Origin: Treponema ruminis
GTDB lineage: Bacteria > Spirochaetota > Spirochaetia > Treponematales > Treponemataceae
Assembly: GCA_017161305.1 (NCBI GenBank)
Contig: CP031518.1
Coordinates: forward strand, 558,001 to 622,000
DNA length: 64,000 nt
Direction: 5' to 3'
In this document: in pieces, positions 35,501-56,000 of the stretch
Layout: every line of letters begins with the position of its first letter
Numbering within the stretch: the first letter of the stretch is position 1
Position numbers and translations under genes: made by a program
Notes under the pieces: generated by a model
What the model was told of the DNA's origin: nothing
Seen by the model: the letters and a program-made list of their open reading frames with translations, nothing else
The model's database searches: none

Positions 35501-38500
35501 GGGGCAAGCGTTGTTTTTGGAAAGACATATTACACTGACAGTACGTTTACTCTCGGCGGTACAATCACAGAGGAGAATATTGATCCAAACAATCCTCCAA
35601 AACTCACTGTGTCAAAAGACGGAGCTGCGACAACCACTGTAAACTTTACAACTGATGTAACTACAGCTGGTGCATGGACTTACACAATTCCAGACTTTGC
35701 TGCAAATAATGCTGATGACGGACAGTATGTATACACACTCACAGTCAATGATAAAATTGGAAGTGACCATGAATTCAAGGAATCTATAACCGTCATTGTG
35801 GATACAAAGACACCAGATGCGTCTATTACTGCTCCTGGTGATGGTGATCAGTTCTTGGCAACTAATCTTCCTGTAGCAAAAATTGCATATTCTGATGATG
35901 GCGTTGGAATTGATACGTCAAGCTCAACTGCAATCAAATATATTGTAAAAAATATCACTGACTCTTCGAATGTTACTGATGTACCAGGAACAAATTACTC
36001 TGTAAATAACAGAAGTGCGACTGGTCAGGCTACATTTAACAGCTCATTCAATGCAGAGGGTTCGTTCACAGTTTATGCCGAGGTAGAAGATTATCTCGGA
36101 CATAAAGCACAAACAGAAACTCGTACGTTCTATTATGATGTTGCCCCACCGACACTTACAGAAACAAAGGTCGGCTCAAACGGAATCACAACAAACGGTC
36201 TCGAGGCAACTGGCGGAACAGGTACTGAATCTGCTAGAAAGTTCACATTGGAAGGAACTGTTTCTGATTCTAACGCACTTTATGACAACGGAACTTATCA
36301 TTCAACTGGAGATAATGTAATTGTAATCTCTACAAATGAAAAACTGTCTAATGGAACGACACGAACTCGTACATGGAATATTCAACTTGAATCTGGTTCT
36401 ACAAAGAAATCTGGAAACTGGAAAAAAGACTTCATTATCGGTTCTGGAGAAGGTGTCGATACAGATGCAGAGAATTATCTCCCGGATGGAACTTACACGT
36501 TCTCAATCAAGGCAACCGATGTTGCTGGCAAGACTACAATTGAAGCACGTACTGTAAAGGTTGATACAGTTGCACCACAGTTTGGTGAAGAAGAGCCTTC
36601 TGAGACAAATACAACTAACGTCAAACCTCATGTTTCAACAAAGGTTAGTGATGCTGACTGGTATAAGACAAACAGCCTGCGTTTTGAAGGAACCGCTAGT
36701 GATAATGGTGGAACTGGAATTGAAAAAGTTTACTATCAGATAGGTACAAAAAATGATAGTGGTTCTTATACTTGGGGTGATGAAACAGCCTTTGCGGGTA
36801 CAGAAACTTGGGCAGGAACAGTCGATAATCTCAAATCACAGAAGTCAATGATTCGTATTGTTGTAATCGATAATGCCAAAAATAAATCTGTGGTAAAAGA
36901 ACTCGGCCCATGGAAGATTGATATGACAGAGCCAACCCTCACTTCTGGTTCAGTTGAAGTTAACAATGCAAAAGTTTCTGAAGAAAATCCATTCTACTCA
37001 AAGGGTGCAAAAGATGGTGCTTCTGCGGTCAATCCTGTTGTTACATTTAAGGTAAGTGATGAGGAAAATGGCAGTGGCATTGCAAAAGTTGACGTTCATC
37101 TCTACAGCAAGGCAACAGATACAACTGCTGCTGATGTAATTCATATTACAGATGTCGCTGCTGATGGTTCTTGCACGGCAGGAATTCCTGCAACATATAT
37201 TACAAAATCAGGAACTGCATACGCACGAATCTACGACAATGCGGGCAATGCTACTGACGTGAATTTGTTCGCGCTCACTTATGATACTACGGATCCAAAG
37301 ATTATTAGCCCAGTTCTTGAAGAAAAGACTGCAAACTTCAAGGCTTATAAGACTAAGGATAATAACGGAAAAGAATTCTACTATGTAAATAATAGCGATG
37401 GTCACAAATTCACTCTTTCTGGTGTTGCGACTGACAACCTTGGTCTCAATAAAATCACGCTTTCTATTACAGACGGCACAAAAACACTTGATACTGTCGA
37501 AATTGTTGATAATCCTGCAACAGCAAACAAAGATGAGCTTGCCGATTGGGTATTCGACAACATTGATTTGCACACATTGTCTGGTGATAATACAAAGGTA
37601 ACACTCACATTGTACGACAAAGCTGGCAATAAAGCTGAATCAATTATCTCAATCAAGTACGACACAGATGTTCCAGCCGCACTCCATGAACTTGATGGTT
37701 CTGGAAAAGACTACACATTCCGAATTGGTGACGGTATTGGCGGAAAGTATTCTCCGGGAACTTACGGAAACAATACAACAATCATGATTCGCGGATACTT
37801 CACTGAACCTCTCAGTGGTCTTTCAATGCTCTATTACAAAGTTTTGCAGACTCAGCCGACCCAAGATTATGCAGATACATTCCTTGCTAATTACACAGAC
37901 GGTTCAACAGGATTCGCTGCACTTTCTTCTGAGAAGGAAGCAACTGTTTCTAGTAGTGCTTCTGGTGATAAAACTGTTAAATCAAACTTCGAGACAACAG
38001 TCTCTTCATTCCAAGAGGGCAAAAACTACCTTCTCCTCGTGGCTGTAGATAACGTTGGTAACGCTGCTTTGGATACGGTTTCAGTTGGAACTGGTACAGA
38101 TGCTGTTACAGGTTGTTACTCAATCAACGTAGATGTAAAAGCTCCAGAAGCAGAAGCAAGCGATATGAATGCTCACCTCACGAACGGTGAATCAGACATC
38201 GTGATTACAGGAACTGCAAAAGATAATCCTTCTGACGGTGCTTCTGGTATCAAGTCGATTGTGGTTTCTTTGACTATTGATGAACAACACAAATATAAGA
38301 GTTCAGATAAAAATCCGAAAATCACAGTTGAGCCAAATCCAGCTGTTACAACGACAACAGATGCTTCAATTGCTAACTGGAAGGCAACAATCAGTAAAGA
38401 TTTGTTCGCTGATGAAGACCTCACTTCTGGTAACTTCACTGTATATGCAACAGTTACTGATAACGCAGGAGAAGTGAAGAGCAATTCACAGACTTCAAAC

Positions 38501-41500
38501 ATCGGCACAATCACTGTGGATAAGAAGCTTAAGAAAGTTATTCTCAACGCTCCAGCGGATGCTGACAAAACAACATCTGTCCGTGAAATCAATGGAATCA
38601 TTGATTTGACTGGTACGGTCGAAGATGATAACCCATTGTCAAATACAGCAATCGTTGGAATTCAGTATGTTGCGGCTCCGCTTGATGCTCAGAATAAGGC
38701 AAGGGCTTTTGCAGATTTGTCAGATGCTGAAAAATCTGCGCTCGCATGGACAACCCTCACAAATAGTGAGAAAACCGCCGTACATGGCGATATGACAAAT
38801 CTTTCTCTTTCTGGCAACTACACCTTTAGTATCAAGAACTTCGATACAACAAAGATTGAGCCTTTGAACGACGTTGCTTACTACATCCGTGCAAAGGCAC
38901 AGGACAAGGCTGGCAACATCGGATATTCTGAAGCAATTCCTGTGACAATTTCTCAGGATTCAGACCGACCTGTAATCAAGCTCACGAACCTCACTGATCT
39001 GGGAGCTGGTTCAAGTCCAAGATTCGTTCTTAAATATGGAACAAAATCTCAGGTCATCGCCACAGTTGATGATGACGATGGAATTGCTGAAGTCTACTTC
39101 TCTGAGACTAGCTACACTGGGGCTACTGGACAAACAGCTCCAAGCACAGATGTGTCTGACTACTCTGAGACAAACGGTACTGTCACATTCACACCTGTTA
39201 CTGCTAATACGAATGCCATTAGTCCTGATAATAAGAATGGCGATGGACCAAAAGGCTTCTATATATATGTGAAAGATAAGGCTGACAATGTCTTCTACAC
39301 AATGTATGACACACAAAACGGAACGAACTATCTCAAGGTTCCGAAAGTCAAGATTGGTAATTACCATGAAAACTCTGCTGATGCGGAACCGTTCGCATAT
39401 CAGTCAGACTCAACTTCTCCGGCTGTAGATGATATTCGTGGTCTTGCATTCAAAGCTGGAGCAAGTGCAACTACTGCAGGTGATGTTAACGGCGGCCTTA
39501 ACAATACTTCAAAACAGTACACTGAATATGAAGCCGTAAATACAAGTTACATTCTTGGTGGAACAGAACGACAGTGGGCACAGTTCCAGGTTGTCGCAAA
39601 CGATGCCAGCGGAATTGCAGGCATCGCAATGGAAATCACATACACCAAGAAAGATGGTACGAAAGTAACAAAAACTTTCAGTTCTCATAACGACTTCAAG
39701 ATTGATGCAAACACAACAGTTACTGCGGCTGACAACTTTAAAGGTTCTGGTAATAACGCAACTTGGACAACCGATAAAGTCTCATTCGCCGATGCAAAGT
39801 CTGACAGCGTTGCAATTAAAGTCGTTCCGTATGACAAGCTCGGCTTGGTTGGTAACGGAAACGTCACTCTCATGGTGGACAATACTCCACCGACAATCAA
39901 AGTCACCAGCCCTGCAAGCGGCGAAGAAAAAACTGGTTCTGTTTCATTCACTGGTACTGCATTCGACGATGGAAATGCTGGCACGGAGGAAATCTTCTGG
40001 CTTATTCCAAAGCAGAGTGACATTCCTGATGCTACTGTTGCAGAAGCTACAAAACTTGAAACGCTCAAAGCTTTGACATGGAATGGTGGTAGTTCGGCTA
40101 TGCCAATTAAAGCAACCGTCACATCTTGGCAGTTTGACTTTGATGGAAAGTACGATGTCGCTACATCTAATACTACAACTCATGTTTATAAAGCCGGCAA
40201 TCCGATGCTTGATGTCTATGATTCCGATGTTTATGCTAAGACAATTACAGACGGAGTTTATACATTGCCAATTTACTTCCTTGCAATTGATAAGCTCGGA
40301 AACTACGACATTAAGACAGATTATGTGATTCTCCATAACCCGGACGGCGACCGACCAAAAGTTGTGTTCACTTATCCGACAGTTTCTTACTATGATAAGA
40401 AAGCTGGTAGTACAACTGAAACAGAAAAATATGTTACCCTTGGCGGAACAATTCGTGCAACAGGTAGTGCGGAGATTCCTTCAAACACGACTACGGTCAA
40501 GAATGTTTATATTCAGATTGGTGACCTGAATGCAGATGGAACTGGAACTTTTGCGGCTTCTAAGGCTGCTGCACAAGCGACAATGACATCTTATGGTTTC
40601 GCTATTGTTGACGCTTACACTGTAATCAACGCAATAAAGGGAACTGAATATACTTCTTCATCTACATTCTCTGATGGTGACCTTAAGGCACTCGGTTTTG
40701 CTTCTAAAACGGATTTGGATGCTTGGTGGGGTATTCAGACCAACGGAACTGCTTCTTGGAATATTCCTCTAAATGCAGACGGAAAAATGAACCCTCCAGA
40801 GGCAACCGGAACGACTACGGAAACGACAAACAATATCTCTATTCGAGCTTGTGGTATAAATGCCGATGGAAAAATGGGTGCATGGACTCAGCAAGACAAT
40901 GTGATTGGAATTCATATTGATAATGCCGCTCCGTCACTTTCTGCAAATGTAGAGCAGTTTGCACCTGCTATTACAAGTGCGACAACGTCTGAAGCGTTAA
41001 AAGCTTTGACCCCAAGTGTAAGTCAGAACTATGAGTCTGACATGTACTTGCGCGGCCAGTGGTATCTTGTCGTTAAAGCTCTTGATGCTTCTGATATTAA
41101 TACATTGAAGGTAAACGGTCTTGACCCAACATACAAATTTGCTGTGTCTGAATCTGTTAATGGTAAGACTAAAAAAGGATATAAGATTTTTATTCCTATT
41201 GACAAGTCTGGTGATTCTGCTTCTTACAAAGTAACAGCGATAGACTCGGATGCAACAAGCCATACTGCAGAACAGACATTCTCGTTTAAGATTGATAACA
41301 AGGCTCCTTCATTGGAAAGCATCACTGCAAACGGTGCTGAATTCTCTGCTATTAATATCGTTCAGAACTCAAACTACAAGTTTACTGTTGCTGGAAAATC
41401 AACTGACGAAGGTTCTGGAGTTGAGCGTGTTGTATTCTATTACATGCGAAAGCTTGGAACAACGCCAATAAAGAGCACGACAAATGCAAATGATGTTGTT

Positions 41501-44500
41501 ATTAACCCGATGATTCAGCCTTCTGGTGATGATTATAGTGGTGCTAAAGTTTCTATTAATGCTGGTGATATTGAAGTCTTGACTCTTACTCAGCCAAGCG
41601 AAACTGCTGGTGGCACAGCTTCAACTTATGATTTGTACGCACGCAAAGTAAGCGGAACTGCAACTACAACGACATTCAAAGGCACATTTGATGCTCATGT
41701 ACGTGTTGGCGGATTGATTACTTTCGACAAGACTATCTTCCGAAGAATCACAGCTAAAAGCTCAACAGCAGTTACATTCGAGCCTGCTCTTACAAGTGCA
41801 CCAACAGAAACTGAAACTGTTACAGCATACTTCCCGATTGCTCAGGTAATCGACAACTCTGCTACAGAAAAGACATCAAGTGACAGCGAAAATCCGTTCA
41901 CATTCGAAAAGGGTGATGACGGAGACTTGATGCCAGAATCATTCTCAAAGACTTCTTCAACTTGGACTTGGGATGCTTCAATCCATTCTGACAACTTGCC
42001 GGACGGTCCGATTTCTCTTGTAATCCTCGCATTCGATGAGGCTGGCAACGTCAGCGGAACGACAATCAACACAAGCGTATCAAACAACGCTCCACGTGTT
42101 GCAAAACTCTTCCTCGCAACCGACTTGAACAACAACAAAAAATTCGAGGAAGAAGAATTTGAGGAATACAGCATCATTGGTGCAGAGGGCAAAGAGAAGG
42201 ATAACTATGTCCTTGATTTCGATGCTACGGATTCAAAGGGCAAGAAAAAGTTCTCAGCAGGAAAATTCACTGCAAAGAACAAGCTTGCCGTAGTTCCTGA
42301 AATCGTGGGCGGTAACAAGTCAATCATGCTCGTTGCAAAGAAAGAAGCGGACGATGCAAGTACAGCAACTGCTCGCGCAGCAGCTGCCGGCACTCAGATT
42401 AATTCAATCGCAAGCGGCACTTCAGCCGGAACCACGGTAGAAGAGACGACAACATACTCTGCAAGCATCGCAAAAACAGACAAGGATGCCGCTTCAGCTT
42501 ACTCAATCACAGCCCCAAGCTTCGCAGCCTCTGCCGCCGACAACAAGTTCTACGCATACGTGCTTGAGAACAGCGTGCTCACAGGCAAAACCGCCTACGC
42601 AGAAGCTGACGACGGTGATGGAAAGGCACTTTCATTTACGTTCTGGGACGAGACCGAGGAGACTACCCAGGGAACTGACTCACAGAAAGCCGTTGTGCTC
42701 GTCAAGGGATTCAGCTACGACCTCACCGACGGCAAATCACCGACTGTCGTTGTCAATCCGTTCTACTGGAAGGGCTTGAACAGCAACTCAATCTATGGTT
42801 CTGGCGCAAAGACCGGAGATTCTTACTCAGTCTCTTCAATCTCAGAATTGCAGGGACACATCGAGCTTGAATCAGATTGGAAGGAAACTGACGCTTACAA
42901 GAATAACGAGGCAGAGACCGACTCAACCAAGAAAAACTTTGTATACGACGGCGACCCGAAAGTCTCTGGTAAAATCACGTTCACTGGTACTGCTTACGAC
43001 GAGCATTCTTTGAGTAAAATCACCTTCACATTTGGTGATAAATTTACGAACGAAGAACTTGCTCATTATGACACAGCGACAAGTGCTTGGGTAAAATCTG
43101 ATGCAAAAATGGCAGATGATGGCTATGAAGTTACAATTGAAGATGCTGAAAAAGACTCAAAAGGAAACTCTGCAACTTACGGAGTTTACGAAGATACAGC
43201 CTTCTTTGGACAGAAAGGTCACAAGGTTTACTGGACTCTGAGCATAAACACTGCAAAAATCACAAAAATTGCTGATAAGGAGGTCACACTTACAGTAATC
43301 GCAGAAGACCTTGCAGCCAACACGACAAAGACAAGCGGTACAAATACAGCTGGAGAAAATGAAGTTCAAGCACCGGATAAGAGCACTGGCTACATCCCAG
43401 GCCAGGAGCTTTCAACAACCGTCAAGTACAGCGTAACTGACGGAACAACGAACTATCCGATTTACAAGATGGACGTTGTGCCATATATTACGTCGGTTGT
43501 GACAAAACTTGCAGGAAACGATAAAACTAATCCTGAGATTTACTCACGTACTGCAAGAGGTCATTACCCAATTTCAAGTAGCGAAAATTCCGTTACATTG
43601 AAGGGCTTCAATCTTGCCGAAGACAATGCTGACTTTACGTTGAACGAAACGACAATTTCTGGTTTGACAACTCGTGAATACGTACATACTGTCAACAGCA
43701 TCGAAAGCATCAACAACAAGAACAATAACGGTTCTCATGGTGCATATAATGTAAGCGTAGAAGGTCTTGCTGAAAAGACAAAGGTTGCGAACATGTACAA
43801 CCGTCAGCCAAATAACACGACAAACCTTACGCTCACGGATGATGTCTATTTCGATATATGGGAATTCAAGGACGGTGCACAAGGAAATAAAGGTAAGATA
43901 AAAGAGCCTATTATGCGTATAAATCCAAGTAATAATGTTGTAGGTTTCGCATTTGCAAGTGGCCCTGCACATTTCTGTATGCCAAGCCAGACAAATTCAT
44001 TTGAGTTGTGGCAAAAGAACTATGCAGACTACAATGGAATTGCAATGGCTTATGACTATTCTGGATATGCACATACAATTGCTGTAGGTCTGGATACGGA
44101 ACCTAATAGCAATTATGCAGGACGTATGAATTATACGAATAGTGCGTTTGGGCATAAAGGAAGAGGCGGTAACAGAAATGATGCTGATTATAAGGATCAA
44201 TCTTATGGAAACTTCCAAAGAAGAACTCAAGTTGCTTTGGATTCAATAGGTGGTGCTGGTACACTTGATCAGGAACGTTTTTCCGATGTTTCCATTGCTA
44301 CGGCGTCAGCAGAATCAGGTTTCCCAAGAGTCTATATTGCATATTGTGATACTAATAGCGAGCAGATAAGATTCAGGTACGGAGAAATTAATGCACTTAC
44401 TCGATCCACAGGTGATGGAACTGCTAATTTCACTCAATTCGGTCAAATTAATGACTCTAAAAAGAAGGGTAGCAACGATGCAGTTTCTGATGATACAAAT

Positions 44501-45343
44501 AATTCATATAATTTGCACGGAGCTTTTGATGCCCATGCTGATTACTATAGTTTAATTGCTGGTGGAAGTACAGGAAATGTTTCTGGAGAATATGTTTCAA
44601 TTGATGCAATTCCTGGAACTGGCATTAACACTGATATTGTCGTGGTTGTTTGGTATGATGGTACAAACTTGAATTATATGTACCGCTATGGAACAAAAGA
44701 TGATACCGATGCAAATTCTGATGCTGTAGCCAATAAGTGGTCAAAACCGAAGGTTATCTTTGAAGATGCTGGTGCATATTGTAAAATCAAGGCAGACTCA
44801 GTTGGTGGTATTCATATTGCATGTTTTGATGAAATTAATTCAGATTTGAAATATGCTTATATGCCAGGTTATAATTCTGAGACTATTTATAAGGCAACTG
44901 TAGATTCTTATTCACAGATTGGTTCAAATCTTGAACTTGATGTAGGTAGAAAAACAGCTACAGGAAATGTAATTCCATACATCAGTTATTATGCAGAAGG
45001 TATGAGATCAATGCCAAAATTTGCATATCTTCCAGATGGAATTAACAAAACAGCTCCAATTGTTCCAAATGGAGCTGATACTGATACGAACTTGTTTACT
45101 GGTTCATGGGAAGTTTCTTTGTTGCCAACAACATCAAAAGTTCGAAATGACAACATTCAGATTGCAGTATGGAAAAATAGAGCTAATGGGGTTATAAACT
45201 ATACTCCAGCTTCTACCGCAACGGCAGTTGCTCCAACCGCAGACGGAAGTACGATTAAGCCAAATGGCACATCCGAAGTCGTTGTTGGTTATGCAATTAC
45301 AAAAGGTTCAATCGGCTACATTGAAACTGCAATGCGCAAGTAA
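29552..45343 (+). CDS. Giant Ig-like lipoprotein 2 (switchable C-terminus)
   Basis: 5263 residues; CTGGAGG precedes the ATG. Lipobox FYSC (Cys28), then GEDAGLGGAIDTK...LSIDYP. The body is tandem Ig-like modules with TxAPxI and DKAGN motifs. A ~500-residue module is duplicated (residues ~1451-1957 and 1957-2454) and is not seen in the other giants, explaining the extra length. From ~4270 a 136-codon block is repeated almost exactly, inverted, at 47998-48405; beyond it lies the variable C-terminus: Ig-like module (PKVSGKITFTGTAYDEHSL), MDVVPYITSVVTKL, RTARGHYP, YNRQPN, WYDGTNLNYMYR and a final IGYIETAMRK. Likely a very long surface stalk with a C-terminal propeller-like head whose identity can be switched by inversion. 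The ligand is unknown. Confidence 0.9.
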   Translation: MKKSVVKLLQSFLLLGASILSGFAFYSCGEDAGLGGAIDTKAPSLSIDYPKESGSAIRDQFILAGTVTDDKSIARVTVNVKSLDDGGKISDTYSASFDPVKNRWWVDINRYDASAAGYYNGWQYPDGNYEFSVTAFDNAGNNSGTYSKTFEIDNTAPVFIISNPGVIKKTNLSASAYGSLFTIDGTISDNHTISFMDVTIYDASGKCVSSESYEGENLPYYREEDIATAGGTSVQIAQYSKEPSTALNTRYSQLHESESGTEYYYAEIKLTDSTKVYRNPWGEDARSADEISAEQLGNSTSKVYLYDDVYASLMSAKKGLGLSAANLKDIISGVYSGSASKESVLQTLNEKVYDTSLVEDDPMANKLSFSLNPEANPTYNVNGFEFGFGDEAVLSASSGNTVSVTISAGLDKTNIAPEVVRVWMKTYVQKPTDQAAVKSDLITLGKEVVKFEKYNDDFAGFMDKLHETPENPATTITTGGANWVLIYDYSLNNSRSSSVSTKTFSVTLPDGIELSKYYILGVTGCDIEDLEFAQNTVYGFEGNTAGVPPTIDIETPDNLSVWANFAAPSFSGTASLSTKSLYVSELTASLSIIEDGSTKKNIGEFTDTITCKIENDEKVWSTSAAQALTYDKTEDKWHLDASKLPGLLEVYGKEAPKGVLWLATLKVSGKSSSGHTGEKTLSVKIDTVAPVVSISSVTPTVLGSEYFGDSDTNTYLNGEISIKGNISDTNLLETEAAVTYDVLASIGDEEPVSILADLIANKEDVGADFDGKLGSVYSINESFDTRAISKFFHDFKEKGEDEKIKIEVVVTATDKAGNKGSYSSSLLNGGKNFVIYQETDRPKIELGNAELSITKAENVKVNHNLFGTTSNNKLTVNFSDDDSIAEYEVYVYDEKGELVKETEVSAQTDNVKANPYKYYPGKTTAALSYVLPSKEAKYQVEIKARDYLTTGLNTNPYGEKSVGKFFVAVDSGAPEVEISKPDLNSFQSGSIQVSGSVSKAVDLKGTLVENSQNAAAPKTFEIKSSEMTKDGDSYTWKWENTVANDGAYSIKVDVTDIYGQTAAKTRAFKVDTKSPEIKATTTSVDNNNRLVPLDEMEYITLKADVTDGADSSSVAGISVVKYLLTKDKFSADALKDENIAQIKSAFEGNDWTQMNQGGTVEATNVTSFNASVPVKTFATDKNYFDGEAYVYVATEDNVGNFKISEDPVVLNFDEKAPKIVVVDFDGSTEIETNGIGKATTPDQKLTVKVEDTNVDKLESGDVKLAVGGATELAGGKGKSFVVTPAWEGFLVNGETKYEDTKTATFTATDTHSRKSTKTVILKCDTYAPRVVLTRKTGDTFSNSSSIELTGTIEDKNISGTSEYFKLYLVPPASTSFDVKEGLVTFVKNGEKYEFTANITGLNDTEYNIAIIAKDSFGNEAKYSTDASKTTAKTGSNTDLVTKIDGGSISIDSLAPSSNIKLDTNGKLLDRQKASVTNANPHALDFGSTYYTDNTFILKGTITETNLIENAAQAGGFPGTKEPTLTISKEGVLEAELTPSNDGPFILGANDGNGKYEWSYTPNYDEDGSKDALYEYTLTVWDKSKQSFSKSVTVTLDTKKPELAFTSPSENESFESNPAAKVAYSDDGVGIKEYTYKLFSISDDGTENEKTIETNAITNGSATGSVNLTSAVGSTEGSYKITAQVEDYLGHKSELVERNFYLDTSKPTVDEKAIGSSGLTTNAGTITLTGVVYDTNALYQNGATGTVKISGTWNGQNRSVNVTVTPKAETVDGKSYTAKQYATWTYTFNTANYKGPNNESANTSVENYLPDGTYNFAIIATDTAGKTNQISRTVTVDTVAPKFGTGVASDSNTTNVAPYVSTTSVTSDSEKWYKTNELRFAGTATDTFDGVAGTGIKEVYYETSTDGSSWTRGDYFAGTSSWAGTVQNLVHNSTQVRVVVVDNAGNKTESDPLGKFNIDMVAPTSTIVLTPASGGKLLDSAKNTGASVVFGKTYYTDSTFTLGGTITEENIDPNNPPKLTVSKDGAATTTVNFTTDVTTAGAWTYTIPDFAANNADDGQYVYTLTVNDKIGSDHEFKESITVIVDTKTPDASITAPGDGDQFLATNLPVAKIAYSDDGVGIDTSSSTAIKYIVKNITDSSNVTDVPGTNYSVNNRSATGQATFNSSFNAEGSFTVYAEVEDYLGHKAQTETRTFYYDVAPPTLTETKVGSNGITTNGLEATGGTGTESARKFTLEGTVSDSNALYDNGTYHSTGDNVIVISTNEKLSNGTTRTRTWNIQLESGSTKKSGNWKKDFIIGSGEGVDTDAENYLPDGTYTFSIKATDVAGKTTIEARTVKVDTVAPQFGEEEPSETNTTNVKPHVSTKVSDADWYKTNSLRFEGTASDNGGTGIEKVYYQIGTKNDSGSYTWGDETAFAGTETWAGTVDNLKSQKSMIRIVVIDNAKNKSVVKELGPWKIDMTEPTLTSGSVEVNNAKVSEENPFYSKGAKDGASAVNPVVTFKVSDEENGSGIAKVDVHLYSKATDTTAADVIHITDVAADGSCTAGIPATYITKSGTAYARIYDNAGNATDVNLFALTYDTTDPKIISPVLEEKTANFKAYKTKDNNGKEFYYVNNSDGHKFTLSGVATDNLGLNKITLSITDGTKTLDTVEIVDNPATANKDELADWVFDNIDLHTLSGDNTKVTLTLYDKAGNKAESIISIKYDTDVPAALHELDGSGKDYTFRIGDGIGGKYSPGTYGNNTTIMIRGYFTEPLSGLSMLYYKVLQTQPTQDYADTFLANYTDGSTGFAALSSEKEATVSSSASGDKTVKSNFETTVSSFQEGKNYLLLVAVDNVGNAALDTVSVGTGTDAVTGCYSINVDVKAPEAEASDMNAHLTNGESDIVITGTAKDNPSDGASGIKSIVVSLTIDEQHKYKSSDKNPKITVEPNPAVTTTTDASIANWKATISKDLFADEDLTSGNFTVYATVTDNAGEVKSNSQTSNIGTITVDKKLKKVILNAPADADKTTSVREINGIIDLTGTVEDDNPLSNTAIVGIQYVAAPLDAQNKARAFADLSDAEKSALAWTTLTNSEKTAVHGDMTNLSLSGNYTFSIKNFDTTKIEPLNDVAYYIRAKAQDKAGNIGYSEAIPVTISQDSDRPVIKLTNLTDLGAGSSPRFVLKYGTKSQVIATVDDDDGIAEVYFSETSYTGATGQTAPSTDVSDYSETNGTVTFTPVTANTNAISPDNKNGDGPKGFYIYVKDKADNVFYTMYDTQNGTNYLKVPKVKIGNYHENSADAEPFAYQSDSTSPAVDDIRGLAFKAGASATTAGDVNGGLNNTSKQYTEYEAVNTSYILGGTERQWAQFQVVANDASGIAGIAMEITYTKKDGTKVTKTFSSHNDFKIDANTTVTAADNFKGSGNNATWTTDKVSFADAKSDSVAIKVVPYDKLGLVGNGNVTLMVDNTPPTIKVTSPASGEEKTGSVSFTGTAFDDGNAGTEEIFWLIPKQSDIPDATVAEATKLETLKALTWNGGSSAMPIKATVTSWQFDFDGKYDVATSNTTTHVYKAGNPMLDVYDSDVYAKTITDGVYTLPIYFLAIDKLGNYDIKTDYVILHNPDGDRPKVVFTYPTVSYYDKKAGSTTETEKYVTLGGTIRATGSAEIPSNTTTVKNVYIQIGDLNADGTGTFAASKAAAQATMTSYGFAIVDAYTVINAIKGTEYTSSSTFSDGDLKALGFASKTDLDAWWGIQTNGTASWNIPLNADGKMNPPEATGTTTETTNNISIRACGINADGKMGAWTQQDNVIGIHIDNAAPSLSANVEQFAPAITSATTSEALKALTPSVSQNYESDMYLRGQWYLVVKALDASDINTLKVNGLDPTYKFAVSESVNGKTKKGYKIFIPIDKSGDSASYKVTAIDSDATSHTAEQTFSFKIDNKAPSLESITANGAEFSAINIVQNSNYKFTVAGKSTDEGSGVERVVFYYMRKLGTTPIKSTTNANDVVINPMIQPSGDDYSGAKVSINAGDIEVLTLTQPSETAGGTASTYDLYARKVSGTATTTTFKGTFDAHVRVGGLITFDKTIFRRITAKSSTAVTFEPALTSAPTETETVTAYFPIAQVIDNSATEKTSSDSENPFTFEKGDDGDLMPESFSKTSSTWTWDASIHSDNLPDGPISLVILAFDEAGNVSGTTINTSVSNNAPRVAKLFLATDLNNNKKFEEEEFEEYSIIGAEGKEKDNYVLDFDATDSKGKKKFSAGKFTAKNKLAVVPEIVGGNKSIMLVAKKEADDASTATARAAAAGTQINSIASGTSAGTTVEETTTYSASIAKTDKDAASAYSITAPSFAASAADNKFYAYVLENSVLTGKTAYAEADDGDGKALSFTFWDETEETTQGTDSQKAVVLVKGFSYDLTDGKSPTVVVNPFYWKGLNSNSIYGSGAKTGDSYSVSSISELQGHIELESDWKETDAYKNNEAETDSTKKNFVYDGDPKVSGKITFTGTAYDEHSLSKITFTFGDKFTNEELAHYDTATSAWVKSDAKMADDGYEVTIEDAEKDSKGNSATYGVYEDTAFFGQKGHKVYWTLSINTAKITKIADKEVTLTVIAEDLAANTTKTSGTNTAGENEVQAPDKSTGYIPGQELSTTVKYSVTDGTTNYPIYKMDVVPYITSVVTKLAGNDKTNPEIYSRTARGHYPISSSENSVTLKGFNLAEDNADFTLNETTISGLTTREYVHTVNSIESINNKNNNGSHGAYNVSVEGLAEKTKVANMYNRQPNNTTNLTLTDDVYFDIWEFKDGAQGNKGKIKEPIMRINPSNNVVGFAFASGPAHFCMPSQTNSFELWQKNYADYNGIAMAYDYSGYAHTIAVGLDTEPNSNYAGRMNYTNSAFGHKGRGGNRNDADYKDQSYGNFQRRTQVALDSIGGAGTLDQERFSDVSIATASAESGFPRVYIAYCDTNSEQIRFRYGEINALTRSTGDGTANFTQFGQINDSKKKGSNDAVSDDTNNSYNLHGAFDAHADYYSLIAGGSTGNVSGEYVSIDAIPGTGINTDIVVVVWYDGTNLNYMYRYGTKDDTDANSDAVANKWSKPKVIFEDAGAYCKIKADSVGGIHIACFDEINSDLKYAYMPGYNSETIYKATVDSYSQIGSNLELDVGRKTATGNVIPYISYYAEGMRSMPKFAYLPDGINKTAPIVPNGADTDTNLFTGSWEVSLLPTTSKVRNDNIQIAVWKNRANGVINYTPASTATAVAPTADGSTIKPNGTSEVVVGYAITKGSIGYIETAMRK
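33901..36915 (+). repeat. Divergent tandem duplication inside giant 2 (~1.5 kb x 2)
   Basis: Unit 1 (33901-35420) and unit 2 (35421-36915) encode the same order of motifs: GKLLD, TYYTD.TF.L.GTITE.N, YSDDGVGI, EDYLGHK, NALY.NG, ENYLPDGTY, TVDTVAP.FG, WYKTN.LRF.GTA and WAGTV.NL. The DNA has diverged, so this is an old in-frame duplication. Confidence 0.75.
42362..42769 (+). repeat. Left arm of 408-bp inverted repeat (in-gene)
   Basis: Begins ACAGCAACTGCTCGCGC and ends CCGTTCTACTGG. It is identical to the reverse complement of 47998-48405 except for one base I could find (GCGGCACTTC here, GCGGTACTTC there). Codon phase is the same in both arms. Confidence 0.93.
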
Positions 45344-45350
45344 AATCACT

Positions 45351-45420
45351 CATTGAGGGAAAATATTCCCTCAATGACAAGAAATCCCCGAAAAGCATAC
45401 AGCCTTTCGGGGATTTCTTG
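45351..45420. terminator. Two-hairpin bidirectional terminator at the centre of the invertible segment
   Basis: CATTGAGGGAA-AATA-TTCCCTCAATG (45351-45376) is followed by a perfect 16-bp stem, CAAGAAATCCCCGAAA (45378-45393) with its complement (45405-45420). It lies between the convergent stops at 45343 and 45436. The midpoint of 42770-47997 is 45383.5, inside this element, so it can serve either orientation. Confidence 0.85.
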
Positions 45421-45435
45421 TTTTATCTGTTTGCA

Positions 45436-48405
45436 CTATTTCATTTGTGCAGTTTCTATGTAGCTAGAATTACTACTGTTCTTTACTACGTAGCCCAATA
45501 CAGGGTTGTCTGTACCATTTCCATAACAAGTACCATTACCCTTACCTGAATCTTTTGTACCTATGTTGGTATTACCATTTGTTGGAGCAGCTTTATTAGT
45601 CGTTGAATAAGTTCTTGCTCCAGCTGCTGTTTTGAATACACCAACATTGATTCTTTCTTCTGGAACAGATCTTGTTGAAGTGTCAGATGGTAAATATGTA
45701 ATTTCCCATTTACCTGTGAAACAATCTACACTATCTGAACCAGATTGAATACTATCAGAAACAAGGTATGCATATTTAGGAAGGCATTGTGAAGTTGCAT
45801 AATATCCAATGTACGGAATATTTTGACTTCCTGTTTTTGCGACATCGATTGTAAGATTTGTTCCAACAATATCGTAAGAATCTACAGTGCATACGTCTGG
45901 AGTTCCGTCTTTATAATTTGAAAGATATGCATATTTCAAATCACTTTCACTATATGCAGCTATGTGTATTCCATTGTCTGCATCAACTGCAAGATTACAG
46001 TATGTACCGCCGACATCCAAAATATCAGGTCCTTTTGTCCATCCAGCCATACTGACTCCAGTCCTTTCAGTAAGAGGTGTATCATTATATGCAAAGCATA
46101 ATTTACGATGCCACTGGTCATACCAAACCATTACGATAACATCGTCATTGGTGGTCTGTCCATTTTGATTAATTTTCTTTACTACACCAATAGAAACATA
46201 ATTACCGGCACTGCCAAGCAAACCTTGTCCAGATTTATTTGCAACAATCTGAGCTTTGCTTGGATCATAGAAACCATAGTTATAATCCTTTGCACCAGAG
46301 CTTCCAATGTTTAATTCATTGCCAGTGAAGCTGTCTGTAATTGTTCCAATGTTTGTTTTTCCTCTAGTTCCTCCTTCCGTATTTGGGTCTCCAAGTGAGC
46401 CACTTCGGAATCGAAGTTCATCATTAATATTATCATAATACGCCAGATAAATATTCGTTGTGCCAGTACCAGGACGTGATGTAGCAATTGATGGACTTTG
46501 AATTCTGTCTTTATCTACATATAATTCATCAGTACCAGGGTTCTCTTTAACTCCATCACCATCATCATACATCTGACCGATAGATTCTACTCGTAATGAT
46601 TTATCACCACCAGTAGATCCTGTTTTACCAGAACTAGTTCCAACTCCAAATTTAGAAGTCATAAAATTGAACAAATCCGCCTGGTGTGTATTATTATCTC
46701 CACCAGAAGCTACTCCATACGAATATCCAGCAGAATCATATGCAAGACCTACAGAACGATACTGTTCAAAGCTACTCTGCCAGGTTGTATATGAAGTATT
46801 CCAGTTTGGCATACAATACAAGAATTGTCCGTTCGCAAACGCAAATCCAATCATATTGTTTCGAGGATTAATCTTCATAACTGCATCTGTAATATGGAAG
46901 CTTGTAGGTTTTGCTGCCTCATTATCAAATTCCCAAATATCAAACCAAATATCATCAGTGAGCAAATTATTGTTATCTCCGTTTGGCTGGCGGTTGTAGT
47001 AATTTGCATATACAGTTTTATCGCCACTTGGTTTTTCTGCAAGATTAACAGTTTTTGCGTATACACCATGACTGTCGTTTGCATTATGGTTATTGATTGC
47101 TTCGATTTCATTTACCTTTGGATTATAGATACCAGATTTCTGAAGCGTTGAAATCTGCACAGAGGTGTTTGTTCCCAAATTGAATCCATTCAAAGTTACT
47201 GTTTCATTCGAACGAACAGCATAATGACCGCGTGCTGAACGAGTGAAAACACTTGGATTATTTCGTCTAAGTGATGTCAAAGATGTCGTAATACTTTTGA
47301 CGTATGGAACAACATCCATCTTGTAAACAGGATAGTTCGTTGTTCCGTCAGTTACGGTATACTTGACGGTTGTTGTAAGTTCCTGACCTGGTATGTAACC
47401 TCCGCTCGTAGTTGGAGCTTGGATTACATTCTCGCCAGAAATCTCTGTCGTATTGCCAGCAAGGTCTGTCGCAAGGACTGTAAGAGTCATGTCCGTATCA
47501 GCTTTTTTGCTGACTTTTTCGGTGTCGATGCTCAGAGTCCAGTAGATTTTGTGTCCTTTCTGACCGAAGTAGACTTTATCATCAAATACGCCGTAGGTGT
47601 CAACTTTCTCGCCCTTCGCATTTGTCGATACGACTGAGACGCTTGCTTCATAACCGTTAGCCGAGATAGATTTTGTGCTGTTGCCATCATAAAGCTTCCA
47701 AGTAGAGATTCCTTGTTCCTCATCATAGCCATAGGTTGCGATTGTTCCGCTGAGCGTTGTTGTTTCGCCTTTTCCAAACGTAAAGCTGATAGAAGCAAGT
47801 GAGTGCTCGTCATAAGCCGTACCTGTGAATGTAATCTTTCCAGAGACTTTCGGGTCAAGGTCATTTATACCAGTACCAGATGTTGTAAATGTATCCGGCA
47901 AATCATCTTCAAGTTCGATATGACCTTGAAGATCGTTTACAGAAGAAACCGCATCTTGAACATCTGAGCCATAAATTGAGTTCGATGTGAGCGACTGCCA
48001 GTAGAACGGATTGACAACGACAGTCGGTGATTTGCCGTCGGTGAGGTCGTAGCTGAATCCCTTGACGAGCACAACGGCTTTCTGTGAGTCAGTTCCCTGG
48101 GTAGTCTCCTCGGTCTCGTCCCAGAACGTAAATGAAAGTGCCTTTCCATCACCGTCGTCAGCTTCTGCGTAGGCGGTTTTGCCTGTGAGCACGCTGTTCT
48201 CAAGCACGTATGCGTAGAACTTGTTGTCGGCGGCAGAGGCTGCGAAGCTTGGGGCTGTGATTGAGTAAGCTGAAGCGGCATCCTTGTCTGTTTTTGCGAT
48301 GCTTGCAGAGTATGTTGTCGTCTCTTCTACCGTGGTTCCGGCTGAAGTACCGCTTGCGATTGAATTAATCTGAGTGCCGGCAGCTGCTGCGCGAGCAGTT
48401 GCTGT
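45436..48405 (-). pseudogene. Silent C-terminal cassette for giant lipoprotein 2
   Basis: The open frame runs from 48414 to a TAG at 45436, about 990 codons, with no ATG, ribosome site, promoter or signal peptide at its 5' end; the first usable codon is a GTG inside the shared repeat (48207). The first 136 codons equal those of giant 2 at 42362. The rest is a diverged version of the giants' C-terminus: LQGHIELEDDLPDTF, PKVSGKITFTGTAYDEHSL, MDVVPYVKSITTSL, RSARGHYAVRSNE, YNRQPNGDNNNLLTDD and a final YIETAQMK. Since the frame is uninterrupted and in phase, the segment looks maintained rather than decaying. Inversion across the 408-bp repeats would fuse it to giant 2. An automated annotation may call it an independent gene of 923 residues. 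Confidence 0.8.
47998..48405 (-). repeat. Right arm of 408-bp inverted repeat (cassette)
   Basis: Reverse complement of 42362-42769 with one mismatch seen. Homology stops sharply at 48405, where the sequence becomes noncoding (TTGGTAGAATTTAATTG). Confidence 0.93.
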
Positions 48406-48453
48406 TGGTAGAATTTAATTGTTTGAAGAAAATAAATTTTTATATCAATGAAA

Positions 48454-48491
48454 CGCCCCGAAAAGCAAAGCTTTTCGGGGCGATTTTTTTT
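48454..48491 (+). terminator. Rho-independent terminator beside the cassette
   Basis: CGCCCCGAAAAGC-AAA-GCTTTTCGGGGCG is a perfect 13-bp stem (48454-48482) with eight T on the plus side (48484-48491). No plus-strand gene ends here, so it may insulate the silent cassette or serve the minus-strand Rpn tail that ends at 48521. The 48406-48453 spacer shows nothing else. Confidence 0.7.
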
Positions 48492-48520
48492 GTCCAGTGG
48501 AATTTTGGTTCTGCAAAAAT

Positions 48521-48781
48521 CTATTTTGTAACGCCGGCGGCCTCGCGTTCTAGCTCTTCTTTTAGGGCGAGAACTTGCTCTAATGGGAGTGAACAACAGT
48601 CCGCGATTTCTTTTTCAGAAAGTTTATTCAGAGAAAGCAAATTCTTCGCGTTGGCTATGGCAGTTTCTTGTACGCCTCGCTTAATGCCATTTTTTAAGCC
48701 ACGTTTCAAGCCTTCTGCAAGAGCGATTTTTCTAGCTTCGGCCGCTCTTTCTTTTCCATATTCTTCTATAATCCTACACAT
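48521..48781 (-). CDS. Orphan Rpn C-terminal protein (antitoxin-like short Rpn)
   Basis: 86 residues from an ATG at 48781, with GAAGGAG and 8-nt spacing before it. It matches the C-terminal part of the adjacent full-length gene (MCRI.EEYGKER...ETAIANA.N..L) but has its own insert (AAEARKIALAEGLKRGLKNGIKRG) and tail (SLNKLSEKEIADCCSLPLEQVLAL). Homology extends upstream to LAEKVRYHKQETEGVRT, which begins immediately after the neighbour's TAG at 48833. It is thus a second tail abutting a complete gene, like 8697-8927 behind gene D. The retained Shine-Dalgarno and ATG allow translation. By analogy with E. coli short Rpn proteins it could neutralise the nuclease; this is inference. Confidence 0.65.
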   Translation of the reverse strand: MCRIIEEYGKERAAEARKIALAEGLKRGLKNGIKRGVQETAIANAKNLLSLNKLSEKEIADCCSLPLEQVLALKEELEREAAGVTK

Positions 48782-48832
48782 AGTTCTGACTCCTTCTGTT
48801 TCTTGCTTGTGGTAGCGAACTTTTTCGGCTAG

Positions 48833-49699
48833 CTAGTTACTGACAATGGCCGCTTCGCATTCAAGCTCCTCTTTGAGGGCAAGAACTTGCTCCAGGGGGA
48901 GTGTTGTGATTTGTGAAGCCTGTTCGGGAGCAAGTCCGAGTTTTAAGGCATTCCTAGCGTTGGCGATGGCAGTTTCGTGAACTCCACGCTTCAATCCTTC
49001 TGCTCTGCCAAATGCTTCTCTCTCTTTTCCGTATTCCTCAACAATCCTACACATAGTTCTGACTCCTTCTGTTTCTTGCTTGTGGTAGCGAACCTTTTCC
49101 GCTAGTTCGCTGTAATTCATTTCATCGGCATTGGGCGTACAAAAATCGTGCATCAATTTGCCGAGCGCGTCATCACCACGATATCTTCCATTCACGTAAA
49201 TTATATTACACCCGTCGTCAAATGGCAAATACATGGATTCGGTTGAGGTCACTTCAACCGTTCTTTTGATTTTGTAGAACGGTTGCCCTAGTCCGTAATA
49301 ATCATTCTCGGTTATGAAGATGATATACGTTTCTGGAAGCTGTGTGAAGTCTTCTTTCTTTTTGAGACTGTGGCTGTCGAGCATAGCCTGATTGTAACGA
49401 ACCCGCTTGGACGACGCCCCTTCATCCGCCCTTTGAACCTCGACGTTGTACACTTTGCCTTGCGTGTCCTCAGCGAGAATATCCAGCCGGACAGAACGCC
49501 CGAAAAGGTTCCGTTTTTCTTTCTGAGTCGTGACTTTCTTAACGCGAAGATCGTCACGGTTAAGAAGGATCCGCAGAAGAAATTCCGTGATTTCGTTGTC
49601 CCCGTCGAATACTACAGTCATGAAGTCATCGTCCATGAGGCGCATTGCTTGGATTCTTGCGAGCATTGCCGGATCGATTGTGTCCAAAAAACTTGGCAT
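48833..49699 (-). CDS. Rpn family nuclease / PD-(D/E)XK transposase-like (copy G)
   Basis: 288 residues of another Rpn subtype (TIGR01784-like), starting MPSFLDTIDPAMLARIQAMR, with D73 and E87-V-Q89 in VRLDILAEDTQGKVYNVEVQ. It continues RVRYNQAMLDSHSL and PETYIIFITENDYYGLGQP, typical of the family. GGAGG lies 10 nt before the ATG. The internal ATG at 49054 (GAAGGAG, 8-nt spacing) would give a 73-residue C-terminal product, exactly where the neighbouring orphan tail starts. The usual leader is absent except for the TTTTCGGCAATGC half at 49743-49756. It lies between the silent lipoprotein cassette and a second lipoprotein remnant. Region 49760-49899 shows no gene. Confidence 0.88.
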   Translation of the reverse strand: MPSFLDTIDPAMLARIQAMRLMDDDFMTVVFDGDNEITEFLLRILLNRDDLRVKKVTTQKEKRNLFGRSVRLDILAEDTQGKVYNVEVQRADEGASSKRVRYNQAMLDSHSLKKKEDFTQLPETYIIFITENDYYGLGQPFYKIKRTVEVTSTESMYLPFDDGCNIIYVNGRYRGDDALGKLMHDFCTPNADEMNYSELAEKVRYHKQETEGVRTMCRIVEEYGKEREAFGRAEGLKRGVHETAIANARNALKLGLAPEQASQITTLPLEQVLALKEELECEAAIVSN

Positions 49700-50620: not shown

Positions 50621-51640
50621 TTATTTGACGGCAATTTCATCCTTGACTTCCTCTTTGAGTGCCAGCACCTGTTCCAGCGGCAGGGAACAACACTTTGCAA
50701 TTTTCTCTGGGGATAAATCGGTTTCACTGAGCAAGTTCTTCGCGTTAGCAATGGCGTTCTGTCGTTCACCTTCGATTTTACCTTCACTTCGACCAATCGC
50801 TCTGCCGTCGTCATAGCCATCCTCGTAGCCTTCGGCACGGCGGTTACGGTCATAGTCTTCCTGATTGAATTCTGTGAGAAGGTTTCCGACAATATTCATC
50901 CGCTGCTCCTTAAAGTATCCGTCTAGAAAATTGCCTTTAATGGCAAAGTCCACGGCCTCGTTGATTGCGTCTTCCGGCTTCATTCTTTTGTCCAGATTCG
51001 TCTTTACCCGGTCAACGAAGACACAATAATGATACAACGACTCGCACTTTTTTTGAAGACATTCGTTGTGATTTTTGTTGATGTTGATTACGGTTGCCGT
51101 CCATTCGAACTCTCTGCTCTCATCTTTTACTTCGAACAAATCGGAAAGCCTGTATTTTACGATATCGTCTTGTTCCTGCTGACCGTTGTAGAATACAACA
51201 AACTTCGGCGAAGGAATCTTGATTCTCGCCCGGCCGAAAATGTCCAGATTCTGCTTTGCGACTTCCTTCTGATAAAGCTGGGAGAAGTAAATCAGTCCCC
51301 TGAGCGGCATGTTGGGATTGACCGTAGACTGTTGCTCGAAGAGGTGCATCTCCGAGTTTATCAGGAAGGACAGGTCGTTCTTCATGGTGACGTAGATGAC
51401 ATCATCAATCGTGGTGATTTCGAGAGCTGAAATGTCGGTGTAGTTTTTGTCACTAAGCGCGTTGTAAAGCGAGAGAAGCCAGCGTTTGCTCCGATCATCC
51501 TTGCCACTGTAAATCGAGCGGAAGAGCGTATCCCGGAAAGTCCTTTTCGTTGCGTCAATGCCCGGCAAGTTTACTGTTTTTGCCGTCTTATCCTTTACTC
51601 TCGTTCGATTATTCTTAATTGCCTTTGTTTTCTTTTTCAT
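50621..51640 (-). CDS. Rpn family nuclease / putative transposase (copy I)
   Basis: 339 residues, A-type nuclease with D89 and E102-Q-Q104. The ATG at 51640 follows AAAGGAG. The linker is the long form (AEGYEDGYDDGRAIGRSEG), and the tail LSPEKIAKCCSLPLEQVLALKE ends in EVKDEIAVK, an ending shared with the neighbouring gene of another nuclease type. Its downstream terminator block is also shared with that neighbour. The internal ATG at 50899 with AAGGAG-N6 would give a 92-residue C-terminal protein. Confidence 0.88.
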   Translation of the reverse strand: MKKKTKAIKNNRTRVKDKTAKTVNLPGIDATKRTFRDTLFRSIYSGKDDRSKRWLLSLYNALSDKNYTDISALEITTIDDVIYVTMKNDLSFLINSEMHLFEQQSTVNPNMPLRGLIYFSQLYQKEVAKQNLDIFGRARIKIPSPKFVVFYNGQQEQDDIVKYRLSDLFEVKDESREFEWTATVININKNHNECLQKKCESLYHYCVFVDRVKTNLDKRMKPEDAINEAVDFAIKGNFLDGYFKEQRMNIVGNLLTEFNQEDYDRNRRAEGYEDGYDDGRAIGRSEGKIEGERQNAIANAKNLLSETDLSPEKIAKCCSLPLEQVLALKEEVKDEIAVK

Positions 51641-52966: not shown

Positions 52967-53016
52967 GTTTCGATAAGGAAATACCCGAAAATGTTTCTTC
53001 TTTGCTGGAGGTTAAT

Positions 53017-56000
53017 ATGAAAAGGAACTTTATATCTTATTTCATCTTTGTTTTCATTATTATTTCTTTGGGGGCACTTCTTTCATCTTGTGGTGAAGAA
53101 TCTGGTCTGGGCAGCGCGATTGATACGAAAGCTCCGGTTCTTTCTATTGATTACCCGAAAGCTTCTGGTTCTGCAATCCGGGACAGCTTTATCCTGGCCG
53201 GTTCTGTTTCTGATGATAAGTCTATTTCTTACATCACTGTTTCCGTAAAAAGTCTTGATGACGGTGGCAAAATTTCTGAAAAATATTTTGCTGATTATGA
53301 CATTTCTAAAAACCGCTGGTGGATTGACGTCAATAAATATGATTCCGGCAATCAATTCTATCACAACGGCTGGCAATATCCTGACGGAAAATACGAATTC
53401 AGTGTCACGGCCTTTGATAATGCCGGCAATAATTCCGGAACTTACTCAAAAACTTTTGAAATCGACAACACTCCGCCTCTTTTCATCATTTCAAATCCGG
53501 GCGTCATAAAAAAGACCGGCCTGAGTCCTTCAGCTTACGGTTCGATTTTTACGATTGACGGCACGATTTCTGACAATCACACGATTACTTACATGGACGT
53601 AAAGATTTTCGATGCTGACGGTGTTTGCGTTTCATCAGAATCCTACGAGGGCTCAAATATTCCTTTCTACCGCGAGGAAGACATTGCGACTGCCGGCGGT
53701 ACCAGCGTTCAGATTGCCCAGTACGGAAATCAGGCTTCAAACAGCCGCTATTCCCAGCTTCATCCCCTTGAAACCGGCACCGAATATTACTATGCCGAAA
53801 TCAAGCTGACTGACTCTACTAAGGTTTACAAAAATCCCTGGGATGACGGTTCGCGAAATGCCGCTACTAAAGAGGCTGACGAGCTTGGAAATTCAACTTC
53901 TTCCCTCTATCTTTACGACGATGTTTATTCTTCCCTGATCAGCAGCAAAAAGGGGCTTGGTCTCAGTGCCTCAAATCTCAAGGATATTATCTCCGGCGTT
54001 TATGACGGTGATTTGGACCGTGATGAAATTCTTGCCATGCTTGAAGAAAAAAGATACGACACTTCTGATTCAAGTGGCACGGAACCCATGGCAAACAAGC
54101 TTGCTTTCTCACTCAACCCGGAGGCAAATCCGACTTACATTGTAAACGGCTTTGAATTCGGTTTTAATCCCGACGATCCCCTTCAGTCTGCCTCAACCGG
54201 AAACACTGTTTCTGTAACAATTTCTGCTGGTCTCGACGGAACAAACATCGCTCCTGAAAACGTGCGTGTATGGATGAAGACTTTGTCTTCCCGCCCTTCA
54301 GATCCCGAGCCGATAAAGGCCGACCTGAATCAGCTTGAAAAGGAAGTTGAAGCCCTTGAGCGGGAAGAAACTGAATTCATGGATGCCATTCACCAGACTG
54401 AAGAAAATCCTGCGACAAAAATCAGCATAAACGGCGACTCATGGAAACTTATCTACGATTATTCACTCAATAACTCAAAGGGAAATTCCGTAGTCACAAA
54501 AACTTTCAGCGTTACCCTGCCGGAAGGAATCGAAATGTCAAAATACTACATTCTTGGCATAAGCGGCTACGATATCGATGACGTTGAATTCTCCCAGAAA
54601 GTTGTCTATGGCTTTGAGGGAAACACGGCGGGCATTCCTCCGATTATATCTTTTGAGAGCCCGCGAAACCTTTCTGTCTGGCCTGACTTTGAAAAGCCGG
54701 AATTCCAGGGTACAGCCGTAATTTCATCATCGGCGCTTTATATCACTGAGCTTTCCGCAGAAGTTAGAATCACTGACGAATCAAGTAACGCCCTCATCGG
54801 GGAATATAGCGACAAAATAAGCTGCATGATTGAAAACGAAGCAAAAATCTGGACGGAGTCTGAAACTAAGGCTTTGACCTGGAACTCTTCGGAAGAAAAA
54901 TGGCATCTTGATGCGGCAAAATTCACCGGCTTAATCGAAAAATTCAATCAGGCTGAGCAGACTGGCCTTCACTGGCTTGCAACCGTTAAAATCACAGGAA
55001 AATCTTCCTCAGCCCATGAAGGCGAAGCAGTTCAGAGCATTCACATCGACACGGTAAAGCCAAAAGTCGTCATTTCTTCGATTAATCCAAGCGTAATCGG
55101 CCAGGACTATTTCGGAGCCGGGGATTCAAACATCTACCTCAACGGCAAAATCACAATCGTGGGCAACGTCGAGGACCTGAATCTTTCTGATGACGAGGAT
55201 GCGGTTTCCTATGATATTCTCGCAAGCATTGGAGATTCTCAGCCCCGCTCAATCCTTTCGGAACTTATTGCAAAAAAAAAGGAACTTGGACTTGATGACA
55301 CTTCTCAGGACGGAAATTTTGACGGAAAACTGGGAAAAGTCTTCTCAATCAACATTCCGATAGATACGAACATAATCACAAAATTTTTCGGCGACAGCGA
55401 CCAGAAGATTCAGACTGAATTTGTCGTGACTGCAAAAGACAAGGCCGGAAACGTGGGAACTTATTCCTCAAAACTGCTGAATTCGACTTCTGAAAATCCA
55501 GAAGGAAAGAATTTCGTGATTCATCAGGAGACTAACCGCCCAAAAATCACGCTTGGAAATGCGGATTGCGACATCACTGAGGAAAGCGGCATCGAGGAAG
55601 GAAAAAACCTCTTCGGAATCACCAACAATAACAGGCTTCAGATTGCCGTTTCTGACGATGATTCTATTGTCGATTACGAGATTTTCATCTGGAAGGCGGG
55701 AAGCCAGCAGCCGGAAAAACCTGCAAAAACTGAAATGCCGGCCAAAACTTCGGACTCAATCAATTATGTCCTGCCGACTGAACCTGGAACTTACAACGTA
55801 AAGATTGTCGCCAGGGACTTCATCCGTTCTGAGACAAACGGCGACGAAAACAATGCGACCGGAATCAATGTCACAGGTCCTTTCGCCATCGGTGTAGATT
55901 CAGGTGCTCCGGTTTTGCGGGTCACGGCCCCTTCAAACAATTCTTGGATTTCTGCTAATACTGACATTGCCCTTGCCGGTACTGTTTCAAAGCTGGTCGG

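Follow-up and report, generated by a model that had tools for sequence, protein, structure and literature searches.

A candidate reversible tip switch in a giant lipoprotein gene of Treponema ruminis

Introduction

The tail fibres of phages Mu and P1 and the R64 pilV shufflon exchange the C-terminal adhesive part of a protein by reversible inversion. In the S-layer sap system of Campylobacter fetus, inversion via long repeats and homologous recombination acts on a surface protein with silent cassettes. A locus of Treponema ruminis that may behave in a related way is described here. The window analysed, a stretch of 64,000 nucleotides (bases 558001-622000 of a single-contig 2.9-Mb genome with a completeness of 81%; assembly GCA_017161305.1, contig CP031518.1), holds the gene for a giant 5263-aa lipoprotein, referred to as gene 2, followed by a silent, backwards cassette that could supply it with an alternative C-terminal tip.

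Inversion within coding sequence has been described in other bacteria. In the pneumococcal Spn556II/SpnIII type I restriction system, for instance, an hsdS gene and a partner facing the other way are reported to share inverted repeats of 15, 85 and 298 bp in their coding sequence. The 3' coding region is described as being swapped at the 15-bp repeat, and inversion at the 85- and 298-bp repeats as independent of the local tyrosine recombinase (PMC4948785; PMC6620402). In Ureaplasma, inversion is reported at repeats in or beside the surface-protein genes of the mba and UU172 systems. The usual outcome described is alternating expression of two genes, and one variant fused the N-terminal part of one gene in frame to the C-terminal part of another (PMC3047005). 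Among the matches listed in a literature search, which left many subscription papers outside, there was no report of inversion in rumen Treponema.

Organisation of the locus

Gene 2 (29552..45343, + strand) encodes a signal peptide with a lipobox-like FYSC motif (identified by eye), an Ig-like stalk, whose Big_13 and Big_3_2 domains match above cut-off in the first 1149 aa, and a C-terminal tip (42770..45343, +; 857 codons plus stop). Immediately before this tip, codons 4271-4406 form one arm of an inverted repeat (42362..42769, +), while the other arm (47998..48405, -) is the 5' start of the silent cassette. An initial annotation of this DNA had reported a 408-bp inverted repeat with one mismatch and both arms in the same codon phase. 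Both statements hold: a reverse-complement comparison found 407 of 408 bases identical, the sole mismatch being a C/T difference at 42418, a third codon position. Position 42362 is codon position 1, placing the arm in phase inside gene 2, and the opposite strand is open from 48405.

At this length and identity, a chance match is ruled out. Identity drops sharply at both edges of the arms, with the repeat search extending the match to 411 nt. With exact seeds of 20, the only other inverted repeat of at least 40 nt reported in the window is a weaker pair inside the two tips (136 nt, 82%). Genome-wide, the arm has no match beyond its own two sites except two pieces (78% and 83%) in giant lipoprotein gene 3 (53002..64000, +; 3994 aa, extending beyond the window end), which carries a tip of the same family and holds this arm-like sequence at 62195-62242 and 62323-62460. 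Viral contigs contained no match to an exact 36-mer of the arm. Arm DNA was matched in 18 of 200 genus genomes, one per species and its own included, with the best other match, at 74%, in genome G186. Because the orthologous arm is only this similar, selection at the DNA level alone is unlikely to account for how alike the two arms are, and a recent copying event or recombination between them is the likelier cause.

On the opposite strand, an open frame of 989 residues runs from 48405 to a stop at 45436. It consists of 136 arm codons and the 853 codons of a silent alternative tip (45436..47997, -; 853 codons plus stop). Inverting the 5228 bp between the arms (42770-47997) would thus exchange the 857 codons of gene 2 beyond the arm for 853 new ones plus a stop, and the codon arithmetic of the initial annotation is correct. 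Its picture of a promoterless, start-less and fully open cassette facing the other way also agrees with what was found. The cassette begins mid-protein and has no signal peptide, and its first 200 codons include no ATG, only GTG at codons 67, 72 and 112 and TTG at codon 169, none with an evident ribosome-binding site by eye. Three minus-strand promoter-like sites occur in 45200-49000, all inside the cassette and none upstream of it.

Between the two convergent stops lies a hairpin region (45350..45425), which would serve whichever tip is attached; the hairpin at 45350-45377 was found on the minus strand and the second one by eye. A further hairpin with a T tract (48454..48482), with a terminator score on both strands, would end transcripts arriving from the Rpn-type nuclease genes upstream of the cassette.

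The silent tip is close to its counterpart in GC by codon position, with 0.45, 0.44 and 0.28 against 0.45, 0.43 and 0.32 in the expressed tip. Without selection, the arms' divergence would predict about 0.3 nonsense changes and a divergence of 10% about 13, and the silent tip was therefore probably translated during most of its divergence. Nothing points to that translation having taken place in gene 2 itself. Besides this one silent tip, five further matches in the genome lie in large ORFs, except the one at 586441, which falls in an 881-aa frame after giant gene 1. Gene 1 (17018-26644) shifts frame near 26640 into a second ORF (26641-29259) that carries the family's tip, through either a true frame break or an assembly indel.

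Structure models predict that each tip ends, in its distal part, in a beta-propeller whose closest fold is that of the Photorhabdus PLL/PHL lectins; both models were built on the same 48 sequences. PLL-type lectins are seven-bladed propellers with sugar-binding sites between the blades. A sequence-profile search of the tips against the PDB gave no match at E 1 or better, while Pfam returned no family and NCBIfam only a sub-threshold repeat. Beyond the arms, DNA identity between the two tips ranges over 34-80% in windows of 40 codons. The highest value falls at silent-tip residues 193-232, where the best matches of the two tips among 13 other sequences compared were 68% and 70%; outside this patch, neither tip resembles its counterpart more closely than it does other tips. 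In addition, residues 112-172 of the silent tip (45436-47994) share 86-88% DNA identity with the L170 tip of a Treponema sp., an otherwise distant sequence, which suggests recent mosaic exchange between species.

Proposed tip switch and its driver

In the proposed mechanism, recombination between the 408-bp arms would invert the intervening DNA. The body of gene 2, comprising promoter, signal peptide, Ig-like stalk and arm codons, would then continue into the other tip, leaving the previous one parked backwards, without promoter or start. Both tips would end, each with its own stop codon, at one central hairpin region. Swapping the predicted beta-propeller head could change what the tip of the stalk binds, or how it appears to the immune system or to phages. 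We infer that inversion takes place and is frequent, and likewise its driver, either homologous recombination or a variant stimulated by a nuclease, the exposure at the cell surface and the ligand.

Homologous recombination is a plausible driver. The arms measure 408 bp, against tens of bp for invertase sites, and a short site within them is possible. The genome encodes RecA and has no match to the PF00239 serine recombinases. PF00589 tyrosine recombinases gave 12 genome matches, 11 of which pass the cut-off; the window holds none of them, and the nearest is about 160 kb away. No dedicated invertase of these two families, the only types searched for, therefore adjoins the element. The initial annotation's statement that the window lacks an invertase was right for both families, and it had overlooked the window's Rpn-family nuclease genes. 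In the pneumococcal hsdS system, inversion at the 298-bp repeat is reported to persist after deletion of the tyrosine recombinase gene, and deletion of recA is reported to have no detectable effect (PMC4948785). RecA should thus not be assumed to be the driver here.

Comparison with the nearest relative

The nearest relative by arm DNA, G186, has a gene 2 ortholog in the form of a 5456-residue frame, which aligns over 5145 positions at 59% identity. Its stop is closely followed by a T-tract hairpin, the counterpart of that at 48454..48482, and then by an Rpn nuclease gene, with no cassette. This DNA corresponds to window DNA from 48454 on, beyond the cassette (92% over 386 bp), which indicates that the cassette sits between gene 2 and the ancestral terminator. 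It would accordingly represent a gain in T. ruminis; loss in G186 is less likely because the cassette is absent at other loci. From residue 4000, gene 2 and its ortholog are mostly 65-100% identical up to the inner end of the arm (residue 4406). Identity then falls over 50 residues and stays mostly at 30-70%. An identity of 49% versus 42% had suggested that the silent tip is the ortholog of the G186 tip, an origin that the tip tree did not support and that an approximately unbiased (AU) test rejected (p 0.0056).

Tip exchange across the genus

The tip family occurs in 129 of the 200 genus genomes. Surroundings were examined at 80 places from 73 of these 129 (the flanks of the remaining 56 being left out) and at 77 further loci from a GTDB scan, largely of the same genomes, giving 157 loci. 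The relatives in the scan include T. saccharophilum, T. zioleckii, T. bryantii and T. berlinense, all rumen or gut Treponema. Trees were built from the window's own sequences and the 40 best phmmer-scoring ORFs above 2000 aa, out of 93 tip ORFs, with one duplicate dropped, a choice of rows that leans towards the silent tip.

Across the genus, bodies and tips appear to have separate histories. Gene 2 groups with the G186 body in the body tree (100 in the Shimodaira-Hasegawa-like approximate likelihood ratio test, SH-aLRT), and a clade of their two tips is rejected (AU p 5e-5); the groupings submitted to AU tests were chosen after the tip tree was known. For example, comparing gene 3 of G186 with a giant of G028 gives identities of 90% for the bodies and 91% for the arm regions, but 48% for the tips. 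Conversely, many of the most tip-similar pairs combine bodies of 25-44% identity with tips of 66-71%. Over 861 pairs of giants, the identity of one body block predicts that of the other (rho 0.79). The correlation of the body blocks with the proximal tip is lower (rho 0.41 and 0.48), and with the distal tip it vanishes (rho 0.00 and 0.05), while proximal and distal tip are loosely linked (rho 0.28). In two near-identical species pairs, body and tip are both retained.

The genus thus habitually exchanges modules beyond the stalk, with the tip as the exchangeable module, and the T. ruminis genome appears to have stored a spare one. The independent inheritance of stalks and heads holds even without inversion, and suggests a diversifying pressure from host immunity, glycans or phages. 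A second pair of giants carrying the same tip family, with two Rpn genes in between, is found at G000:C1:1085000-1115000 (L159, L160); neither stretch contains an inverted repeat of at least 60 bp.

Weighing the explanations

A working reversible tip switch at gene 2 is the probable explanation of this layout. It is favoured by the in-phase arms, the complete 3' end of the cassette, the shared hairpin region, the closeness of the arm edge to the point where gene 2 and G186 diverge, and head swapping in the genus. The reversible head switch put forward in the initial annotation thus draws partial support from the geometry and from the exchangeable tip, its inverted state being inferred.

Several observations weigh against a switch. 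At the 157 related loci besides the window there was no cassette and no pair of tips on both strands, nor any inverted repeat of at least 60 bp at 80% identity or more, and none of the loci examined showed the opposite orientation. Among the genomes examined, the cassette is thus private to that of the window. By their contig numbers, many of the relatives come from short-read assemblies, in which such a repeat might cause a break. Assemblies in one to six contigs (G067, G070, G060, G095, G001) were also without cassette or long inverted repeat, and for contigs beginning near the tip start (G032:C13, G025:C4) no second copy of that end was found. The remaining mismatch means that homogenisation of the arms is incomplete, the silent tip is not a simple ortholog of the G186 tip (AU p 0.0056), and its open frame is weak evidence of recent use. 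Furthermore, high identity continues well past the arm into the proximal tip in some pairs of giants. Exchange edges are therefore spread over arm and proximal tip, and the inner end of the arm would not be the sole place of exchange.

Part of this could be explained by a recent one-off rearrangement, in which a partial copy in inverted orientation, or a tip of outside origin, came to lie between gene 2 and its terminator and has begun to decay, its arms identical through youth. The absence of the cassette from G186 and from every other locus examined fits such an event, and youth would suffice for the open frame and could explain the identical arms, which counts against a switch. A random insertion, however, need not place the inner edge of the arm close to where gene 2 and G186 part, keep the frame phase or bring both stops to one hairpin region, and a one-off origin is considered unlikely. 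Gene conversion also deserves attention, since the spirochaete vls and tprK systems work by conversion. Here the backwards tip would be a reservoir copied patchwise into gene 2 or other giants, with the arms kept alike without crossing over and the orientation rarely changing. The patchy similarity of the tips (80% at residues 193-232; 86-88% to L170 at 112-172) and the loose linkage of proximal and distal tip are consistent with this. Yet a conversion archive would hold several silent donors and this genome has only one. To serve as a donor, the cassette would not have to carry an arm in phase, or a full 3' end whose stop lies next to a hairpin region used by both tips, and the likeness of the two tips outside the patch is no greater than their likeness to others. 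A conversion donor is hence a minority possibility, about as likely as a single rearrangement.

An assembly artefact or strain chimera is very improbable. A completeness of 81% for a single contig of this size may hint at long-read indel errors. Nevertheless, an artefact would not create a tip absent elsewhere in the genome (two other own-genome matches to the silent tip, among those listed, reach 44% and 48% identity), one base separates the arms, and past the cassette the sequence is collinear with G186.

Rpn-type nuclease genes and other neighbours

Rpn-type genes lie on the minus strand between the cassette and gene 3. Nearest the cassette is a tail-only frame (48524..48832, -) with no Pfam family, with an ATG at 48781 after AGAAGGAG (start and ribosome-binding site identified by eye), which is 95% identical to the tail of the Rpn after G186 gene 2. 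Beside it is an Rpn-family (PDDEXK_2) nuclease gene (48833..49699, -), whose frame is 80% identical to the same G186 neighbour. Lying next to the full-length gene (48524-49699), the tail-only frame resembles the separately made RpnS antitoxin, and it stands nearer to its G186 counterpart (95%) than does the full gene (80%). Further along are a gene with mainly the tail in common (50621-51640, -; below the NCBIfam cut-off, no Pfam family) and a clear family member (51868-52848, -). Matches to PDDEXK_2 / TIGR01784 exceed the curated cut-off at 48833-49699 and 51868-52848. In the whole window, eight frames match a purpose-built Rpn profile, several sharing mainly the tail. Four Rpn-tail frames without a Pfam family (2747-5424, 15649-16776, 50621-51640) are 88-95% mutually identical, which points to recent local amplification. 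Upstream of the giant cluster, a transposase with rve integrase-core and HTH_21 domains (7201-8145) is presumably IS3-like, judging by its domain content.

Rpn-type genes are over-represented downstream of giant genes, by an approximate measure. The genome has 13 matches to PF12784, four of them within the two giant clusters against 0.36 expected, with cluster bounds drawn once the Rpn positions were known. In relatives, Rpn frames occur in 10 of 79 downstream flanks of 3 kb (8 convergent; a gap of 108-274 bp to the stop in seven), compared with 2 of 32 upstream flanks. The downstream expectation is 0.63 from the genus mean (5.46 PF12784 matches per genome over 79 genomes, at an assumed genome size of 2.65 Mb) or 1.38 from the density in the T. 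ruminis genome; the flanks were scanned with the purpose-built profile instead of PF12784, which makes the enrichment approximate. The flanks come from 92 tip ORFs, after 13 with less than 1 kb downstream were dropped, some of which have an Rpn frame at the contig end, and at least one gene (G001) is counted twice through overlapping stretches.

In Escherichia coli, overproduced Rpn proteins are reported to increase RecA-independent recombination, and RpnA to cut DNA with little sequence preference (PMC5350276). The E. coli proteins belong to PF04754, and those of the window to PF12784 and an NCBIfam model named Rpn family. A preprint reports toxin-antitoxin and phage-defence roles for Rpn proteins, with the variable tail made separately (PMC10327210). 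Rpn proteins may drive tip exchange, or their genes and the giants may just share a variable region. A broader form of nuclease-assisted head shuffling in rumen and gut Treponema, in which downstream Rpn proteins would cut near 3' ends and promote the exchange of heads between genes, species and cassette faces, is a speculative and rather improbable extension. The link between Rpn genes and giants would make the roles proposed for these proteins in gene transfer (PMC5350276) and phage defence (PMC10327210) testable in a natural setting.

Comparison with known systems

The T. ruminis locus differs from each described system in specific ways. In phages Mu and P1 and in R64, short sites are cut by the invertases Gin, Cin and Rci, whereas here the homology extends over 408 bp and no invertase was found nearby. 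In C. fetus sap, the choice is between whole genes, in several cassettes, that have a promoter and a conserved 5' end in common; here there is one silent tip. The Ureaplasma repeats are short (21 nt for mba, a 51-nt region for UU172) and are treated as site-specific in the published account (PMC3047005).

Among precedents for repeats of this size that act with no recombinase known, pneumococcal hsdS is the best. That system swaps the DNA-recognition domains of a restriction enzyme, as shown experimentally, while here the exchanged part would be the head of a 5263-aa lipoprotein, in a predicted switch, with no adjoining recombinase gene of the two searched families. If the switch is real, the range of proteins switched by inversion would grow to include the tip of a very large lipoprotein, in a rumen and gut clade that is widespread and for the most part uncultured. 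As in hsdS, in-frame inverted repeats within coding sequence join an expressed gene to a backwards partial gene, and the architecture is that of a long-repeat coding-sequence inversion of the hsdS type, set on a giant adhesin-like protein.

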